Assembly: GCA_017962545.1 (NCBI GenBank)
Contig: JAGCVD010000021.1
Location: 17,379 to 81,378 of the forward strand
Direction: 5' to 3'
Length of the DNA: 64,000 bases
Origin: Bacteroidales bacterium
GTDB taxonomy: Bacteria > Bacteroidota > Bacteroidia > Bacteroidales > P3
In this document: in pieces, positions 5,275 to 32,624 of the stretch
Numbering within the stretch: the stretch's first letter is position 1
Layout of the letters: the number at the start of each line of letters is the position of its first letter
Position numbers and translations under genes: made by a program
The notes under the pieces: model-generated
Told to the model about the DNA's origin: nothing
The model's input: only the letters and a program-made list of their open reading frames with translations
The model's database searches: none

Positions 5275-5287
5275 AACGAGGTATTTG

Positions 5288-5362
5288 GTTTAAGGTTTAA
5301 AGTTTGAGGTTTAAGAGGTGCTGTCTAGGCAACTGCTTGACCTTGAATTTTAAACCTTAAAC
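5288..5362. repeat. Heptamer array with inverted counterpart (GTTTAAG type)
   Basis: Four tandem 7-bp units (GTTTAAG, GTTTAAA, GTTTGAG, GTTTAAG) occupy 5288-5315. After a 33-bp core the complement of the first two units recurs at 5349-5362, giving a perfect 14-bp inverted repeat. The downstream arm ends 16 bp before the next start codon, so the transcript between the foldase and LytM genes can form a long hairpin. Confidence 0.85.
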
Positions 5363-10399: not shown

Positions 10400-11182
10400 A
10401 TGAAAGAAATAAGCGATTTCACCATCATTGAGCGGCGGCAGCATGGCCCACACTATTTCACGCTGGTGTTGCGGCACAGCCACCTCACTCCGCTGTTGCC
10501 GACAATGCCGGGACAGTTTGTCGAGGTCCGTGTCGACGGACAGCCGGGTGTTATGTTGCGGCGTCCCATTTCGGTGCACGATGTCGACCCCGAGGCTGGC
10601 ACCCTCTCTCTGCTCGTCCAAGTGGTGGGTCAGGGCACTCGCCGTCTGAGTCAACTGGCTGTTGGAGAAAAGATTAACCTTGTATACCCTCTGGGTCACG
10701 GCTTTACCTCCGACCTCCGATCTCCGACCTCCGCACTATTAGTGGGTGGCGGTGCCGGCATAGCGCCTTTGCTGTATCTTGCCAAGGTGCTGAAAGCAAG
10801 AGGTGTAAGATGTACTATATTACTCGGTGGCCGTACGGCGGAGCTTATCCCCGTGCGCGATGAGTTCCGCCCCTACGGCGAGGTGTGCATCGCCACCGAC
10901 GACGGCTCGCTGGGGCATAAAGGTCTTGTTGTCAGCCACCCTGCTTTCGCGGAGCAGTATGATATCATCTACACCTGCGGTCCCACGCCAATGATGAAAG
11001 CAGTGGCACGCTCAGCAGCGGAGCGCGGCATACGCTGCGAGGTGAGCCTGGAGAACATGATGGCCTGCGGCGTGGGCGCATGCCTCTGCTGCGTCACCGA
11101 CACCGACCAAGGGCACCGCTGCGTCTGCAAGGACGGCCCCGTGTTTGATATCACGAACATGAAGAAATGGTATGCTAATTAG
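10400..11182 (+). CDS. pyrK: Dihydroorotate dehydrogenase B electron-transfer subunit PyrK
   Basis: It passes electrons from dihydroorotate oxidation in PyrD to NAD through FAD and a 2Fe-2S cluster. Motifs: an FAD site (PGQFVEVRV, RRPISVHDVD), the NAD-side glycine loop LLVGGGAGIAPLLYLAK, and a C-terminal cysteine cluster (MACGVGACLCC and HRCVC). It sits before pyrD as in other Bacteroidota. Oddity: between GHGF and LLVGGG the loop is encoded by four tandem copies of the heptamer CTCCGAN (10708-10735), giving TSDLRSPTS. The loop is normally short and variable, so the enzyme probably tolerates it. Confidence 0.95.
   Translation: MKEISDFTIIERRQHGPHYFTLVLRHSHLTPLLPTMPGQFVEVRVDGQPGVMLRRPISVHDVDPEAGTLSLLVQVVGQGTRRLSQLAVGEKINLVYPLGHGFTSDLRSPTSALLVGGGAGIAPLLYLAKVLKARGVRCTILLGGRTAELIPVRDEFRPYGEVCIATDDGSLGHKGLVVSHPAFAEQYDIIYTCGPTPMMKAVARSAAERGIRCEVSLENMMACGVGACLCCVTDTDQGHRCVCKDGPVFDITNMKKWYAN
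10708..10735. repeat. In-frame CTCCGAN heptamer array inside pyrK
   Basis: Units CTCCGAC, CTCCGAT, CTCCGAC, CTCCGCA sit in tandem inside the coding sequence. The same heptamer is found in the 12379 kinase, in tsaC on the opposite strand, and in the spacer at 22776-22826. Confidence 0.9.
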
Positions 11183-11258
11183 TAGTTAAGTAGACAGTAG
11201 TTTTTCACTAGATTAAATTTATTTCAAAGGAGTTCAAAGCCTGCAAGCAGGCAGAAGT

Positions 11259-11322
11259 AGATAAGACAATACAATTTCTAGCAATAAACAAGGCAGCGAC
11301 AAGTGCATTTGTCTTATCTCCT
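11259..11322. repeat. 64-bp hairpin element, copy A
   Basis: It is bounded by a perfect 11-bp inverted repeat (AGATAAGACAA at 11259-11269 and its complement at 11309-11319). It is 60/64 identical to 12278-12341. A pyrimidine-rich repeat arm continues to about 11340, just before the pyrD start. Confidence 0.9.
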
Positions 11323-11353
11323 TTCCTCCTTATCTCCCTCAAAGAATAAGAAT

Positions 11354-12253
11354 ATGCTAGCAGTTAAAGTACATAATCTCAGTTTAAAGAACCCGGTGAT
11401 GACCGCCAGCGGCACCTTCGGCTATGGCGAGGAGTTCGCCGACTTCGTCGACCTCGAGCGTCTGGGCGGCTTCATTGTGAAAGGCACCACCGGCAGCCAC
11501 CGTGAGGGCAATCCCTACCCCCGCATGGCCGAGACCCCCTCGGGCATGCTCAACGCCGTGGGTCTCCAGAACGGTGGTGTGGAGAAGTTCTGCTCCGAGG
11601 TGTATCATAGAATCAAGCACTTAGACACCAATATTGTCGTCAACGTCAGCGGTTCCTCCATCGAGGAGTACTGCGACGTGGCGTCGCAGATTGACGCTCT
11701 GGAGAAGATTCCTGCCATCGAGCTGAACATCAGCTGCCCCAACGTGAAAAAAGGTGGTATGGGCTTCGGCACCAATCCCGACATGGCGGCACAAGTGGTC
11801 GCTGCGGTGCGTAAGGTGTACCATAAGACGCTGATAGTAAAGCTGACACCCAATGTCACTAGCATCGTCGACATCGCCAAGGCGGTGGAGAGCGCCGGTG
11901 CCGACAGTGTGAGTCTCATCAACACCATGCTGGGTATGGCCATCGACGTGGAGAAGCGTCGTCCCTACCTCAGCACCATCACCGGTGGTTTGAGTGGCCC
12001 CTGCGTGAAGCCCGTGGCGGTACGTATGGTGTGGCAAGTGGCTCATGCCGTGCAGATTCCCGTTATCGGTTTGGGTGGCATCGCTTCGGCGGCCGACGCG
12101 CTGGAGTTCCTGATGGCTGGCGCCAAAGCCATCCAGGTGGGCACAGCCAACTTCATCGACCCCGCCGTCACCATGAAGATTGTCGACGGCCTCGAGGACT
12201 ACTGCAATCGTCATGGTATCAAGGATATCAATGAGATAATTGGGATAATATAG
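11354..12253 (+). CDS. pyrD: Dihydroorotate dehydrogenase B catalytic subunit PyrD
   Basis: It oxidises dihydroorotate to orotate with FMN, in complex with PyrK. I choose ATG at 11354 ([20 protein letters not shown]), the normal family start; an upstream in-frame ATG at 11303 would translate the repeat element. About 299 residues. Motifs: [33 protein letters not shown] (the catalytic Cys of class 1B), [30 protein letters not shown], and the FMN phosphate site [19 protein letters not shown]. The gene lies between the two copies of the 64-bp element. In many bacteria pyrK-pyrD form one operon; here the hairpin spacer might modulate that. Confidence 0.96.
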
Positions 12254-12255
12254 AA

Positions 12256-12367
12256 GGGAAGGAGACAGGAGGGAAGGAGATAAGACAATACAGTTTCTAG
12301 CAGTAAACATGGCAGCGACAAGTGCATTTGTCTTACCTCCTCATCTTCTTACCTCCTTATCTTCTCA
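12256..12367. repeat. 64-bp hairpin element, copy B, with flanking repeat arms
   Basis: The core 12278-12341 is 94% identical to 11259-11322. The left flank carries purine units of the GGAGACA/GGAGATAA type and the right flank the pyrimidine complement (ACCTCC, TTATCT), ending 11 bp before the kinase start. Confidence 0.9.
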
Positions 12368-12378
12368 AAGAAAAAGAT

Positions 12379-13221
12379 ATGATTCTCATTGCTGACAGCG
12401 GCAGCACAAAGACCACGTGGATGGAGATAGACTCTGGTAACAAGGTGGTTACCGAGGGCCTGAATCCTCATTTTACCACCGACGAGGCCTTCCTCGCCGC
12501 CTGCTCCGCTGTGCGCCAGCAGCTCCGACTTCCGACTTCCGACCTCCGACTTTACTTTTACGGTTCCGGCTGCGGTGATGCTTTGCAACGTGAGCGCGTG
12601 TTGCGGCAGCTCCAGCATGGCTTCGGCACAGAAGATGTGCATGTTGAGACCGATATGTTGGGCGCCTGTCGCGCTATCTGGGGTCGTCACAATGGTCTGG
12701 TGGGCATCCTCGGCACGGGGAGTAACGCCTGCTACTACGACGGTGAACGCATTGTTTATCAAGCCCCAAGCCTGGGTTATATTATTGGCGACCACGGGTC
12801 GGCCAACCACGTAGGTCGTCTCTTGCTGCTGGACTACCTCACGGGCAAGATGTCCGACGAGCTAAGTGGCATGTTCCAAGAACGTTATCCTAGGACGCAC
12901 GAGGAATGGGTAGAGGCATTGTATCACCGACCCAACCCCAACAGGATGCTGGCGGCGCTGGCGCCGTTTGCCGTGGACCATCTGGACGACGACTACTGCC
13001 GTAATACGATATACTATGCCCTCGACGACTGGTACAGCTACCAGTTGTCCGACATAGTGTTGAAGTCGGATTGTCGGCGCCTCTGTGTCGTCGGTGGCTT
13101 CGCCGCTGCGGTGGCCGGCGTGCTTGACGACTACTGTGACGACAACGGGATAACCTTGGGCACCGTAGCGGCCAACCCCATAGAGGGCTTGCTAAATTAT
13201 CACGCCCAATACAATATATAA
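12379..13221 (+). CDS. BadF/BadG-type ATPase, probable N-acetylglucosamine kinase
   Basis: About 280 residues of the ASKHA-fold BadF/BcrA family; in Bacteroidota these are usually annotated as N-acetylglucosamine kinases. Start chosen at ATG 12379 because MILIADSGSTKTTW is the phosphate-1 motif that opens the family. Further motifs: YFYGSGC, VGILGTGSNACYYDG (phosphate 2) and GYIIGDHGSANHVGR. Oddity: four tandem heptamers of the YTCCGAC type (12523-12550) encode LRLPTSDLRL directly before the conserved YFYGSG strand. The substrate is inferred from family, not shown by the sequence. Confidence 0.85.
   Translation: MILIADSGSTKTTWMEIDSGNKVVTEGLNPHFTTDEAFLAACSAVRQQLRLPTSDLRLYFYGSGCGDALQRERVLRQLQHGFGTEDVHVETDMLGACRAIWGRHNGLVGILGTGSNACYYDGERIVYQAPSLGYIIGDHGSANHVGRLLLLDYLTGKMSDELSGMFQERYPRTHEEWVEALYHRPNPNRMLAALAPFAVDHLDDDYCRNTIYYALDDWYSYQLSDIVLKSDCRRLCVVGGFAAAVAGVLDDYCDDNGITLGTVAANPIEGLLNYHAQYNI
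12523..12550. repeat. In-frame YTCCGAC heptamer array in the kinase gene
   Basis: Four tandem units (CTCCGAC, TTCCGAC, TTCCGAC, CTCCGAC). Same unit and strand as in pyrK, about 1.8 kb away. Confidence 0.9.
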
Positions 13222-18647: not shown

Positions 18648-19760
18648 ATGAAAACTTCGAAAGTAATCGCACTCGCAATGATGGCCCTGGCGCTGAGCGC
18701 CACGCCGGCATTGGCACAACGTAGCGGCGGCAGCCGTGGCGGCGGTGGCGGCAGCCACAGCAGCTCTGTCAGCAGCAGCCGCTCCTCCAGCAGTCATAGC
18801 AGCTCCGTGAGTTCCAGCCGCTCGTCGAGCAGCAGCTCGAGCCGCAGTTCGTTCAGCAGCAGTTCCAGCCGTTCCTCGAGTCCCAGCAGCTCCAGCCGTA
18901 GCTCGTTCAGCAGTTCCAGCCGTTCGTCGAGCCCCAGCAGCTCGAGCCGCAGTTCGTTCAGCAGCTCCAGTCGCAGCAGCTCGGTGAGTGCTCCCAGCCG
19001 TTCCAGCGTCGGCAGCCATAGTGAAGGTGTCCGCTCGGAGCGTCCTTCGGTGCGCGGCGGTGTCGAGGCCCGCGGCAGCCACGCCGGTGTGCGTGGCCGT
19101 GAGGCAGGCCGTACGGCTCCCACGGTGCGTGGCGAAGGTGCGTCGCGTGGCGCTGGCGCAGTCAACGAGAGAAGCCATGGCGCGGTGCGTGAAGGCGGTC
19201 CGGCCCCCAAAGCGCCTGCCGGCACCATCTCGGCCTCCGGCCGTCCTGCATCGTCAGGCCCTGCCAACTATGCACGCCCGGGTCACCCCGGCGGCGTGAT
19301 GCCTCCCAGCCATCGCCCCATCCACCCTGCACCCTACTTCTACCACCCCTGGCACCACCACATGGTACACTGCCACCCCGTCTACTGGGATCCCTTCCCC
19401 CCGCGTCCCTGGTACTGGCCCGGATTCTGGCTCTACTGCAACAGCTACTGGTATGACTACCACGTGACCGACGTCGTCGTAGTGCGCCGCTACGTGCAGG
19501 ACACCTACCACGTCGACATGGTCACCTACGGCATCAGCGGCGACATCATGTACGCCATCGTCCGCGACGGCGGTAGCACCTACCTCCAAGTCTATGACAA
19601 GGACGACCACCTGCTGGCCGAGCAGAAGATCAACAAGAAATACTGCAACATGGTCATCGACGCCGACAACGGAGGCTGCTGGATCAGCAAGAAGCACGAG
19701 AAAGATCCCTTGCTCTTCATCTGGGCCGACGGACAACTCCTCATCTACGAGGCCGACTAA
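18648..19760 (+). CDS. Secreted Ser/Arg-rich repeat protein with conserved C-terminal domain
   Basis: 370 residues. A signal peptide (MKTSKVIALAMMALALSATPALA) is followed by about 90 residues made almost only of Ser with regular Arg, in repeats such as SSSSRSSFSSS, then a Gly/Arg/His-rich part. The C-terminal 150 residues are different: a Trp/Pro/Tyr-rich segment (WYWPGFWLY) and an ordered beta-rich domain (VVVVRRYVQDTYHVDMV to WADGQLLIYEAD). I do not recognise the family. The low-complexity part may be a cell-wall- or surface-exposed spacer, and its codon repeats favour length variation. The gene has its own promoter and a repeat-bearing leader. Confidence 0.8.
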   Translation: MKTSKVIALAMMALALSATPALAQRSGGSRGGGGGSHSSSVSSSRSSSSHSSSVSSSRSSSSSSSRSSFSSSSSRSSSPSSSSRSSFSSSSRSSSPSSSSRSSFSSSSRSSSVSAPSRSSVGSHSEGVRSERPSVRGGVEARGSHAGVRGREAGRTAPTVRGEGASRGAGAVNERSHGAVREGGPAPKAPAGTISASGRPASSGPANYARPGHPGGVMPPSHRPIHPAPYFYHPWHHHMVHCHPVYWDPFPPRPWYWPGFWLYCNSYWYDYHVTDVVVVRRYVQDTYHVDMVTYGISGDIMYAIVRDGGSTYLQVYDKDDHLLAEQKINKKYCNMVIDADNGGCWISKKHEKDPLLFIWADGQLLIYEAD

Positions 19761-19767
19761 AGATAAA

Positions 19768-19821
19768 AGGTTATAGGTTAAAGGTTATAGGTGATAGAAA
19801 AGCCTATAATCTTTAACTTTT
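19768..19821. repeat. Heptamer array AGGTTAT with inverted arm
   Basis: Four 7-bp units (AGGTTAT, AGGTTAA, AGGTTAT, AGGTGAT) cover 19768-19795, and related complementary units (CCTATAA, TTTAACT) follow at 19804-19820. This has the same array-core-inverted design as at 5288. Confidence 0.75.
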
Positions 19822-22775: not shown

Positions 22776-22826
22776 CTTCGAACTCCGATTCCGTGGTGTG
22801 CCGTCGGCTCAGCCGACAACTCCGAA
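22776..22826. repeat. CTCCGAN heptamers interrupted by a REP-like palindrome
   Basis: Units CTTCGAA, CTCCGAT and a partial unit precede a 28-bp palindromic element (22792-22819, core GTCGGCTCAGCCGAC); a further CTCCGAA follows. The whole gap between gtrA and the next gene is made of repeats. A near-identical 28-mer lies at 24748-24775 (26/28). Confidence 0.85.
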
Positions 22827-26875: not shown

Positions 26876-27934
26876 TCACAATGTCTGCAAGTATCTATCA
26901 ATCAGCCTTGGCACCGGCACGGATTTCATCTGCGACCTTGTCACGGCAGCGCCAAAGGTGGGAAGGACGACGGGCTCGGCGGGCAATTCGGCCTGTATGA
27001 AACGGGCATGGATGGTGCGGTGCGTGAGCTGGTGGGTGTAGGGTGGGGAGAGTTGAAAGTTGAAAACTGAAAACTGAAAGTTTTTTTCAATAAACGCTAT
27101 GGCGGCGGCGTGTAGCTCTTCGTGGTTCAATTCGTGGTCGGTTTCCAGCAGCGGGAATTCCCAGAGGCCGCGCCAGATGTCGTTGCCTGTGCGGCGTTGC
27201 ATGAGGGTGTACTGGTCGCCCTCTTTGTGCCAGCGCAGGTTGAAGTAGTAGAACCAGCGGTCTTTCGGTTTGGCTTTGGGTATTTTGACGGGCAGTAGGT
27301 CAACGCGACTGGTGCGCAGGGCCTCGCATTCGTCGGCGAAGGGGCAGGCGGCGCAGTCAGGTTGCGGGCGGCACTGCAGGGAGCCGAAGTCCATCAGGGC
27401 GGCGTTGAAGCGGTCGGGCCGTCGGCGGTCGATGAGTTGCAGCAGCAGTGCCTCGAATTCACGGTAGGCCGCGTCGGTGGCGATGGGGGTGCTGATGCCG
27501 CGCAGGCGGCTGATGAAGCGGTATACGTTGCCGTCGATGACGGGGTGGGGCAGGCGGTAGGCGAAGGAGGCGATGGCGGCGGCGGTGTAGCGCCCCACGC
27601 CCTTGAGGCGCAGGATGCCCTCGTAGGTGTCGGGGAACCGTCCGCCACATTCATCCATAATATATTGCGCGGCTGCGTGCAGGTTGCGCGCGCGCGAGTA
27701 GTAGCCCAGTCCCTGCCAGAGGCGCAGCACCTGCTCCTCGGTGGCGGCGGCGAGGTCGGTGACGGTGGGGAAAGTTTCGACGAAGCGCAGCCAGTAGTCG
27801 CGCCCCTGTTCGATGCGGGTTTGTTGCAGTATGATTTCCGACAGCCAGATGCGGTAGGGGTCGTCGATGCCGCGCCACGGAAGTGTGCGTCCGTAGTCGT
27901 TGTACCAAGCCTCCAATTTATCCGAAAAAGCCAT
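26876..27934 (-). CDS. mutY: A/G-specific adenine DNA glycosylase MutY
   Basis: About 352 residues. It removes adenine mispaired with 8-oxoguanine. Motifs: LSEIILQQTRIEQG, the helix-hairpin-helix LKGVGRYTAAAI with the catalytic Asp in VIDGNVYRF, an iron-sulphur cluster signature (CRPQPDCAACPFADEC) and a C-terminal NUDIX-like domain (WFYYFNLRW, IWRGLWEFPL). The first Cys spacing is C-x5-C, one shorter than the usual C-x6-C. Start at ATG 27934. The segment FQFSVFNFQLS near the C terminus is encoded by four tandem heptamers (27052-27079), an in-frame repeat in a loop before the last strand. Confidence 0.93.
   Translation of the reverse strand: MAFSDKLEAWYNDYGRTLPWRGIDDPYRIWLSEIILQQTRIEQGRDYWLRFVETFPTVTDLAAATEEQVLRLWQGLGYYSRARNLHAAAQYIMDECGGRFPDTYEGILRLKGVGRYTAAAIASFAYRLPHPVIDGNVYRFISRLRGISTPIATDAAYREFEALLLQLIDRRRPDRFNAALMDFGSLQCRPQPDCAACPFADECEALRTSRVDLLPVKIPKAKPKDRWFYYFNLRWHKEGDQYTLMQRRTGNDIWRGLWEFPLLETDHELNHEELHAAAIAFIEKNFQFSVFNFQLSPPYTHQLTHRTIHARFIQAELPAEPVVLPTFGAAVTRSQMKSVPVPRLIDRYLQTL
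27052..27079. repeat. In-frame heptamer array inside mutY
   Basis: Plus strand units are GTTGAAA (twice) and ACTGAAA (twice). They give the protein segment FQFSVFNFQLS. Another 7-bp unit family, distinct in sequence from CTCCGAN. Confidence 0.9.
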
Positions 27935-32006: not shown

Positions 32007-32049
32007 CGAAAAAAAGTTGATACTTGGGCAGTATATGTGTTTTTTTTTG

Positions 32050-32057
32050 TATTTTTG
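32050..32057 (+). promoter_or_regulatory. Promoter -7 box of tsaC, very close to the start
   Basis: TATTTTTG ends 9 nt before ATG 32067. The leader is about 4-5 nt or absent, as for higB. Confidence 0.72.
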
Positions 32058-32066
32058 CCGCTCGAA

Positions 32067-32624
32067 ATGAAGATGGAAGAGATTATACGGCAGACGGTGG
32101 AAGTGCTGCAGCAGGGCGGCACCATCCTTTATCCTACCGACACAATCTGGGGTATTGGATGCGATGCGCGCAATGCCGCAGCGGTAGAGAAACTGTATGC
32201 CATCAAGGAGCGCGACCGAAGCAAGAGTATGCTGGTGCTGGTGAGTTCGGAGTTCGGAGATTGGAGTTCGGAGATTGGGGACAGGCCGACGACTTATATA
32301 TTGCCACGGTCGATATGGCATGACGAGATGCATTTCGAGGTGGCCTCCAACCTGCCTGCCGCCGACGGCTCACTGGGTCTGCGAGAGCCGAAGCATGCCT
32401 TCTGCCAAGAGGTGCTCCGTCGCCTGGGGGCCCCCTTGGTCAGCACGTCGGCCAATCTGTCGGGACGTCCGTCGCCGTATATATATAATGATATAGAGGA
32501 ATCGCTGAAATCGAGGGTCGATTTCTGTGTGCCGCCACTACCGGTATTTCTCTCGGGAGAGACATGCGGCAGCCGTATTGTGAAAGTGAAAGAAGACGGT
32601 TCGCAAGAGATTATCCGGCCGTAG
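32067..32624 (+). CDS. tsaC: Threonylcarbamoyl-AMP synthase TsaC/Sua5 (YrdC)
   Basis: About 185 residues, the YrdC-domain enzyme that makes threonylcarbamoyl-AMP from threonine, bicarbonate and ATP for the tRNA t6A modification. Motifs: LQQGGTILYPTDTIWGIGCDA with the KR(S)xxxRxK nucleotide site later (IKERDRSKSMLVLV), and the C-terminal LGAPLVSTSANLSGRPSP. Start at ATG 32067 or 32073. Oddity: after the LVLV strand, five heptamers (GAGTTCG/GAGATTG, 32243-32277) encode SSEFGDWSSEIGD, in frame. Its 3' end overlaps the PPTase gene by 14 bp. Confidence 0.93.
   Translation: MKMEEIIRQTVEVLQQGGTILYPTDTIWGIGCDARNAAAVEKLYAIKERDRSKSMLVLVSSEFGDWSSEIGDRPTTYILPRSIWHDEMHFEVASNLPAADGSLGLREPKHAFCQEVLRRLGAPLVSTSANLSGRPSPYIYNDIEESLKSRVDFCVPPLPVFLSGETCGSRIVKVKEDGSQEIIRP
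32243..32277. repeat. In-frame heptamer array inside tsaC (CTCCGAN on the opposite strand)
   Basis: Five tandem units GAGTTCG, GAGTTCG, GAGATTG, GAGTTCG, GAGATTG. Read on the minus strand the unit is CTCCGAA/CTCCAAT, the same family as in pyrK and the kinase. Confidence 0.9.

Follow-up and report, generated by a model that had tools for sequence, protein, structure and literature searches.

The window studied here, the whole 64-kb stretch of DNA that was analysed, belongs to an uncultured Bacteroidales close to rumen assemblies, and pyrK and a nearby kinase gene in it carry tandem copies of one heptamer inside their coding sequence. A sequence-only reading had noticed these arrays and proposed that the repeat is mobile or arises by a common mechanism. 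This raises the question of how a repeat whose unit is not a multiple of three can come to lie within two genes, and whether it is an insertion, a conserved piece of protein or something else.

Heptamer arrays in the window

The pyrK gene, for the electron-transfer subunit of dihydroorotate dehydrogenase, lies at 10400..11182 on the plus strand and is identified by its phmmer match to PyrK 1ep3 (E 1.8e-42) and by its Pfam domains. At 10708..10735 on the same strand it reads CTCCGAC CTCCGAT CTCCGAC CTCCGCA, that is three perfect CTCCGAN units and a fourth with one mismatch, not the four full units first described. These codons (residues 103-112) fall between the FAD-binding (17-100) and NAD-binding (114-203) domains of Pfam. 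The kinase gene (12379..13221, plus strand) does hold four YTCCGAC units, at 12523..12550 on the plus strand (CTCCGAC TTCCGAC TTCCGAC CTCCGAC). It had been named a BadF-type kinase, but the BadF/BadG match is weak (27.2 bits against Pfam BadF, cut-off 31.5), and its structural relatives make it a sugar kinase related to MurNAc/GlcNAc kinases. The nearest solved ones are a 'putative novel MurNAc kinase' (8ow9), an 'ATPase' (8oqw), 1zbs, 1zxo and the GlcNAc kinases 8oqk and 8ow7, with E from 1.8e-46 to 1.6e-39 and nearly full-length alignments. Both arrays had been called in frame, which is right in that the reading frames are open, but 28 nucleotides are not a multiple of three and the units pass through all three frames, with a peptide period of seven residues. 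The encoded loops do adjoin the protein core as proposed, since the arrays directly precede a core motif in both genes, ALLVGGGAGIAP in PyrK and YFYGSGC in the kinase.

Between the two arrays lies an open frame at 11354..12253 (plus strand), which from position and context we take to be pyrD. A short element with inverted ends (GATAAGACAA ... TTGTCTTA) is present in two copies, at 11260-11318 and 12279-12337, in the spacers upstream of this gene and of the kinase, and both copies are flanked by purine- and pyrimidine-rich repeats.

The same unit had also been reported from tsaC and from a spacer. The first is real: a tsaC-like gene at 32037..32624 (plus strand; 106.7 bits against TIGR00057, below the cut-off of 123.2) contains CTCCGAA and CTCCAAT units in antisense, on the minus strand at 32243..32278, where the sense reading of the gene is SSEFGDWSSEIG. 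The spacer at 22776-22826 has the unit in a weak form, as about two imperfect copies (22776..22788, plus strand) and one separate copy. With at most one mismatch allowed, the two-unit pattern matches nine times in the window against 0.29 expected, a number reached in none of 100 shuffles. The window also has arrays of other heptamers, an AGTTGAA type at 27051..27082 in a minus-strand gene (peptide NFQFSVFNFQL) and, in spacers, an AGGTTAT type at 19766..19797 and a GGTTTAA type at 5287..5315. Longer, imperfect repeats with periods from 12 to 51 occur at 18724-18976, within the frame 18648-19760.

The repeat population of the genome

The whole-genome search for CTCCGAN proposed along with the first observation gave 115 matches (YTCCGANYTCCGANYTCCGA, at most two mismatches; 36 forward and 79 reverse, overlapping triples each counted separately), and the reversed pattern gave none on either strand. 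CTCCGAN is one heptamer of many. In a sample of 462,490 bases of the same genome, a looser rule found 58 arrays, 27 of them in predicted genes, with 34 distinct units, which rules out a single heptamer common to the whole genome. A stricter count in this sample, in which arrays of shorter periods are excluded, gave for period 7 15 arrays in genes, 13 in spacers and 4 at edges; the corresponding numbers in genes and spacers were 0 and 12 for period 11, 3 and 6 for period 8, 3 and 2 for period 9, and 5 and 0 for period 12. Seven is thus the commonest tandem period in predicted genes, followed by periods with 5 arrays each, and it is unusual for a period that is not a multiple of three to be the most frequent there. 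The reason is in part that a heptamer without stop codons gives one and the same peptide cycle in every frame. Arrays are nevertheless denser in spacers, 19.9 per 100 kb against 3.8 in genes, by home-made gene calls that missed the tsaC-like gene and so undercount arrays in genes there. Some spacer arrays stop a few bases from a predicted start codon. An array of a TCTCCTTA-type 8-mer, about 100 bp long, was also found in this sample.

The units are related to each other. The word [AC]A[CT]T is present in 39 of 66 distinct units against 20.3 after shuffling, which disfavours random units, although the excess of the shorter word A[CT]T is small (42 against 37.0). The genome is 81% complete, and the genomes used here are drafts, from uncultured organisms or metagenome-assembled where titles were shown. 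An assembly artefact is unlikely all the same, as the arrays are only about 28-36 nucleotides long and the same site recurs in assemblies of several projects.

One site in the kinase, many heptamers

The kinase loop was compared between genomes by taking sites from 70 of the 168 genomes with a match, 30 of them automatic loci and the other 40 those that came next in score. G117 was passed over as its site is near a contig end, and exclusion of G026, in which the site had been cut short and whose twin locus L092 has no array, left 69 sites. With an array defined by at least 17 of 21 matches at lag 7, 28 of the 69 genomes have a period-7 array at the same ten codons. No site passes at any other lag from 4 to 13, 22 pass at lag 14, and in the rest of these kinase genes none of 51,963 windows passes. 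All 28 array-bearing loops are equal in length and the edges of the array are constant, while the unit differs between species: there are 14 different consensus units, among them TTCTCAA, TTTTCAA, TTGTCAA, TTCACAA, TTCAAAA, TTTTCAC, TTTCCAC, TTTCAAC, TTCCAAC and TTCCGAC, and on the tree, which is a quick one, the unit has changed at least 17 times. Units are more alike within one array (0.886) than between genomes at the same place (0.632). Very different units are found in some pairs of kinases whose DNA outside the site is 86.7-88.0% identical (for example G094/G105, G044/G099 and G048/G072), and other pairs, such as L090 and L096 at 93.0% identity, have kept the same or a near unit. The units are joined by 13 one-step links where chance would give 7.9, a number reached in 19 of 2000 shuffles, and several sites (G048, G113, G020) show mixed arrays or 14-nucleotide blocks, as block duplication in place would give. 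Over all pairs, unit distance does not rise with tree distance (rho 0.06, p 0.27). Presence of an array switches 17 times on the tree, at least 10 of them on well-supported branches, and clusters on it compared with shuffled labels (6 of 500 as low).

Where relatives lack an array, their loops either match the others in length or are a few residues off in one direction or the other. Fourteen units at one length, with divergent units at 87-88% identity, fit neither conserved sequence nor simple insertion. A conserved motif is rejected because the loops of array-free relatives are unrelated and the residues follow the DNA unit. Distant relatives with the same residues at the same place, which would have spoken for conservation, were not seen; the residues differ and the distant loops are non-repetitive. 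By eye, hydrophobic residues recur at loop positions 1, 3, 8 and 10 of the array-bearing kinases, so some bases of the heptamer appear to be constrained and the rest free.

In G018 (L041/L257) the kinase loop is occupied by an in-frame palindromic element of about 90 bp (CCCCTCTCC ... GGAGAGGGG), which is also found in frame in the loop of an OppD-like gene of G042 (L313). In other species it is heptamers that fill these same loops.

Other coding sites

Among the window and 43 relatives listed, PyrK has an array in four (window, L047, L049 and L073). The three relatives have other heptamers and three more residues, and many array-free PyrK loops match the window's in length. Since many array-free relatives are equally long in both proteins, simple insertion of CTCCGAN in pyrK and the kinase is rejected. 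The OppD-like gene has heptamer arrays in 4 of 29 rows and mutL in 3 of 31 (G000, G043 and G073), and in three further mutL genes (G014, G074 and G084) an eight-base repeat is seen by eye at the place of the heptamers. One array in this mismatch-repair gene, at L153:16012-16052, lies in the C-terminal domain. The phosphoglucomutase gene is 27 bases longer at one spot in G000, G075 and G097; the added stretch was flagged as an array in G000 and G075, where the units differ, and was not flagged in G097. G099 has 15 extra bases and 24 of 28 rows have none. Compared with many empty sites, nothing is added in the kinase and the window's pyrK and a net 27 nucleotides in phosphoglucomutase; some arrays thus come with a net insertion and others do not.

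For the sequence-only reading this means that the arrays it observed are confirmed and its interpretation is partly supported. CTCCGAN does recur through the genome, as one repeat class, but no length has been added in PyrK or the kinase relative to many array-free relatives, and other species have other heptamers at the same codons. A fixed mobile element was not demonstrated.

Spread across genomes

The best 80 relatives of PyrK are labelled as uncultured Bacteroidales or Bacteroidetes, many of them rumen-derived. In the family, 29 of 190 genomes, from 2 of 12 genera, contain triples of CTCCGAN, and within the genus G115 has the most matches (122). Triples of TCAATTN are more widespread (112 of 190 genomes, 7 of 12 genera) and reach 342 matches in the own genus (G101) and 399 in one genome of another genus (G132). 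In five to seven sister genera no genome has more than one match, and across the phylum the triples occur in 84 of 296 genomes, with at most 35 matches each. Reversal does not give a usable control for TTTCAAC, a unit that is nearly the same read backwards, and in some genomes the reversed forms of TTTCCAC and TCAATTN exist as repeats in their own right.

In the own genome and 12 sampled ones, period 7 prevails where arrays are abundant, and the strict density is 6.9 arrays per 100 kb in the own genome and at most 26 (G043); four further samples gave 9 to 31. No strict period-7 array was found in the 100-kb samples of G120, G080, G058 and two genomes of other genera. Samples of G120 and G100 (L206-L210 and L166-L170) contain arrays of 11-mers, one of which is present in G120 as four identical copies.

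Origin and turnover of the arrays

We think it likely that the arrays belong to a fast-turning, genome-wide population of dispersed heptanucleotide repeats, which are turned over by slippage or template switching under selection for frame and loop length. The arrays lie in spacers as well as in loops of housekeeping genes. New copies would come from slipped-strand or template-switch events in steps of seven nucleotides, sometimes two units at once, and the same events would carry changes along an array. As seven is not a multiple of three, a stop-free heptamer supplies one seven-residue cycle in all three frames. Selection would favour those events after which the frame, the loop length and a few hydrophobic positions are back in place. 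The loops would be permissive places and not carriers of a repeat function. The molecular step is deduced from the pattern of units, and a step of seven fits the published prevalence of heptanucleotides and the proposed cause. In one survey, heptamers came first among the longer repeat classes in most bacterial genomes, little detailed work has followed, and a 7-nt polymerase footprint that favours slippage has been proposed, as far as the portions of PMC4679880 and PMC4692102 available to us go. Several observations count against slippage. A 7-nt event shifts the frame, and constant length therefore requires paired events. The arrays are denser in spacers than in genes, unit distance is flat against tree distance, and G058 has a perfect kinase array in spite of its sample being empty of strict arrays. 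Units common to the arrays of one genome are not expected from purely local slippage either.

Such sharing exists. In 10 genomes with 272 arrays, two arrays of the same genome share their unit with probability 0.073, against a mean of 0.024 and a maximum of 0.056 in 2000 shuffles, none of which reached the observed value, and the excess survives when each unit is allowed only one array in 5 kb (1 of 2000) or in 20 kb (29 of 2000). In samples of 10 genomes, neighbouring arrays of the same unit were found within 300 bp of each other, noted in G094, G088, G043 and G000; 9 are in direct and 5 in inverted orientation, and hairpins could form from the latter. One explanation of the sharing is that dispersed sites receive short arrays from each other by transfer or conversion (gene conversion, template switching or small insertions), so that loops take up the units common in the genome at that time. 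The unit at the kinase site does track how often four tested units, taken together, occur in the genome (summed rho 1.10, permutation p 0.0013), G105 has TTTCCAC in both pyrK and the kinase and the highest count of this unit among 119 genomes (272), and the phosphoglucomutase gain puts different units at one spot. Against this, no unit alone is significant in rank correlation with the kinase site (p 0.05 to 0.54), only 6 of 9 pairs that respect relatedness agree (sign p 0.25, Wilcoxon 0.037), a stricter pair test is not significant, and the same-genome excess over five genes together is borderline (p 0.05). G115 has TTCTCAA at the kinase site despite its many CTCCGAN copies, and the kinase array does not vary in length or edges. 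Copying from the genome pool into loops is thus suggested and possible, and we regard it as rather unlikely that genome-wide copying in 7-nt steps keeps the arrays of a genome alike and rewrites housekeeping loops at constant length. If true, it would be concerted evolution of coding microsatellites across unrelated genes.

The other explanations are much less probable. A 7-nt unit shifts the frame, and if gain and loss of units switched genes off and on again, such cycles would homogenise the arrays and leave a constant length in the open state with uniform units. This phase variation is possible, but we hold it to be highly improbable: it is unsupported in this analysis, the arrays are short (about four units) and sit in housekeeping genes such as mutL, and among the kinase matches listed, all consensus assemblies, no frame is broken at the array except in G018, where the loop is taken up by another element. 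That a reverse transcriptase or another templated enzyme writes the arrays would agree with the family likeness of the units around [AC]A[CT]T; however, 74 of 119 genomes in the genus lack an RVT_1 match, including the own genome with its 81% completeness and the array-rich G088, G091, G099, G072 and G082, which disfavours an RVT_1 enzyme as the writer. We give this idea slightly less credit still. Selection for the repeat peptide itself is what the recurrent hydrophobic residues at four loop positions could indicate. We consider it the least plausible, as a change of DNA unit alters the residues in between, relatives without arrays show unrelated loops that are often equally long, and heptamers fill spacers as well.

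The genus shows a route by which repeats that are not triplets supply and replace loop sequence in proteins. It also provides 28 natural replicates at one codon-exact site, which makes it testable why the unit is seven and how it changes. Repeat peptides such as SDLRPPT and SQFSILN should not be taken as conserved motifs in these genomes.

Relation to known repeat systems

Phase-variable simple-sequence contingency loci have short tandem repeats in genes, where a change in unit number could change the frame. The arrays described here differ from them in having few units, in lying in housekeeping genes and in showing no off-frame case among the kinase matches listed. They agree with dispersed heptanucleotide simple-sequence repeats in having about three or more tandem units, many dispersed arrays per genome in excess of chance and over-representation outside genes, though still 15 arrays in genes. 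As far as the accessible text of PMC4679880 describes them, the TAACTGA direct repeats of Beggiatoaceae, Cyanobacteria and some Bacteroidetes are likewise dispersed heptamers in short arrays, some near start codons and patchy among species, but they have one unit and are mostly intergenic, whereas here there are many units and many arrays in genes. The GGGAATC and GGGGA(C/T)T heptamers of Xanthomonas and Nostoc, judged by the sections of PMC4692102 at hand, are also dispersed, often with about four units, and variable between close relatives; in contrast to the present units, which by eye are mostly not G-quadruplex-like and are common in genes, they are G-rich and under-represented there. The tandem repeats of archaeal Borgs are likewise fast-evolving and found in spacers and genes, but in the available part of PMC9879509 all unit lengths in open reading frames are divisible by three, and in our genes the commonest period is 7.

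Among the matches listed in open PubMed Central text, no title or abstract opening concerned turnover of coding heptamers in Bacteroidales. The repeat class is known, and its coding, length-keeping form looks new. What is new, as far as searched, is how many arrays lie in genes, that a codon-exact site carries 14 units without a change in length, and that natural replicates are many.
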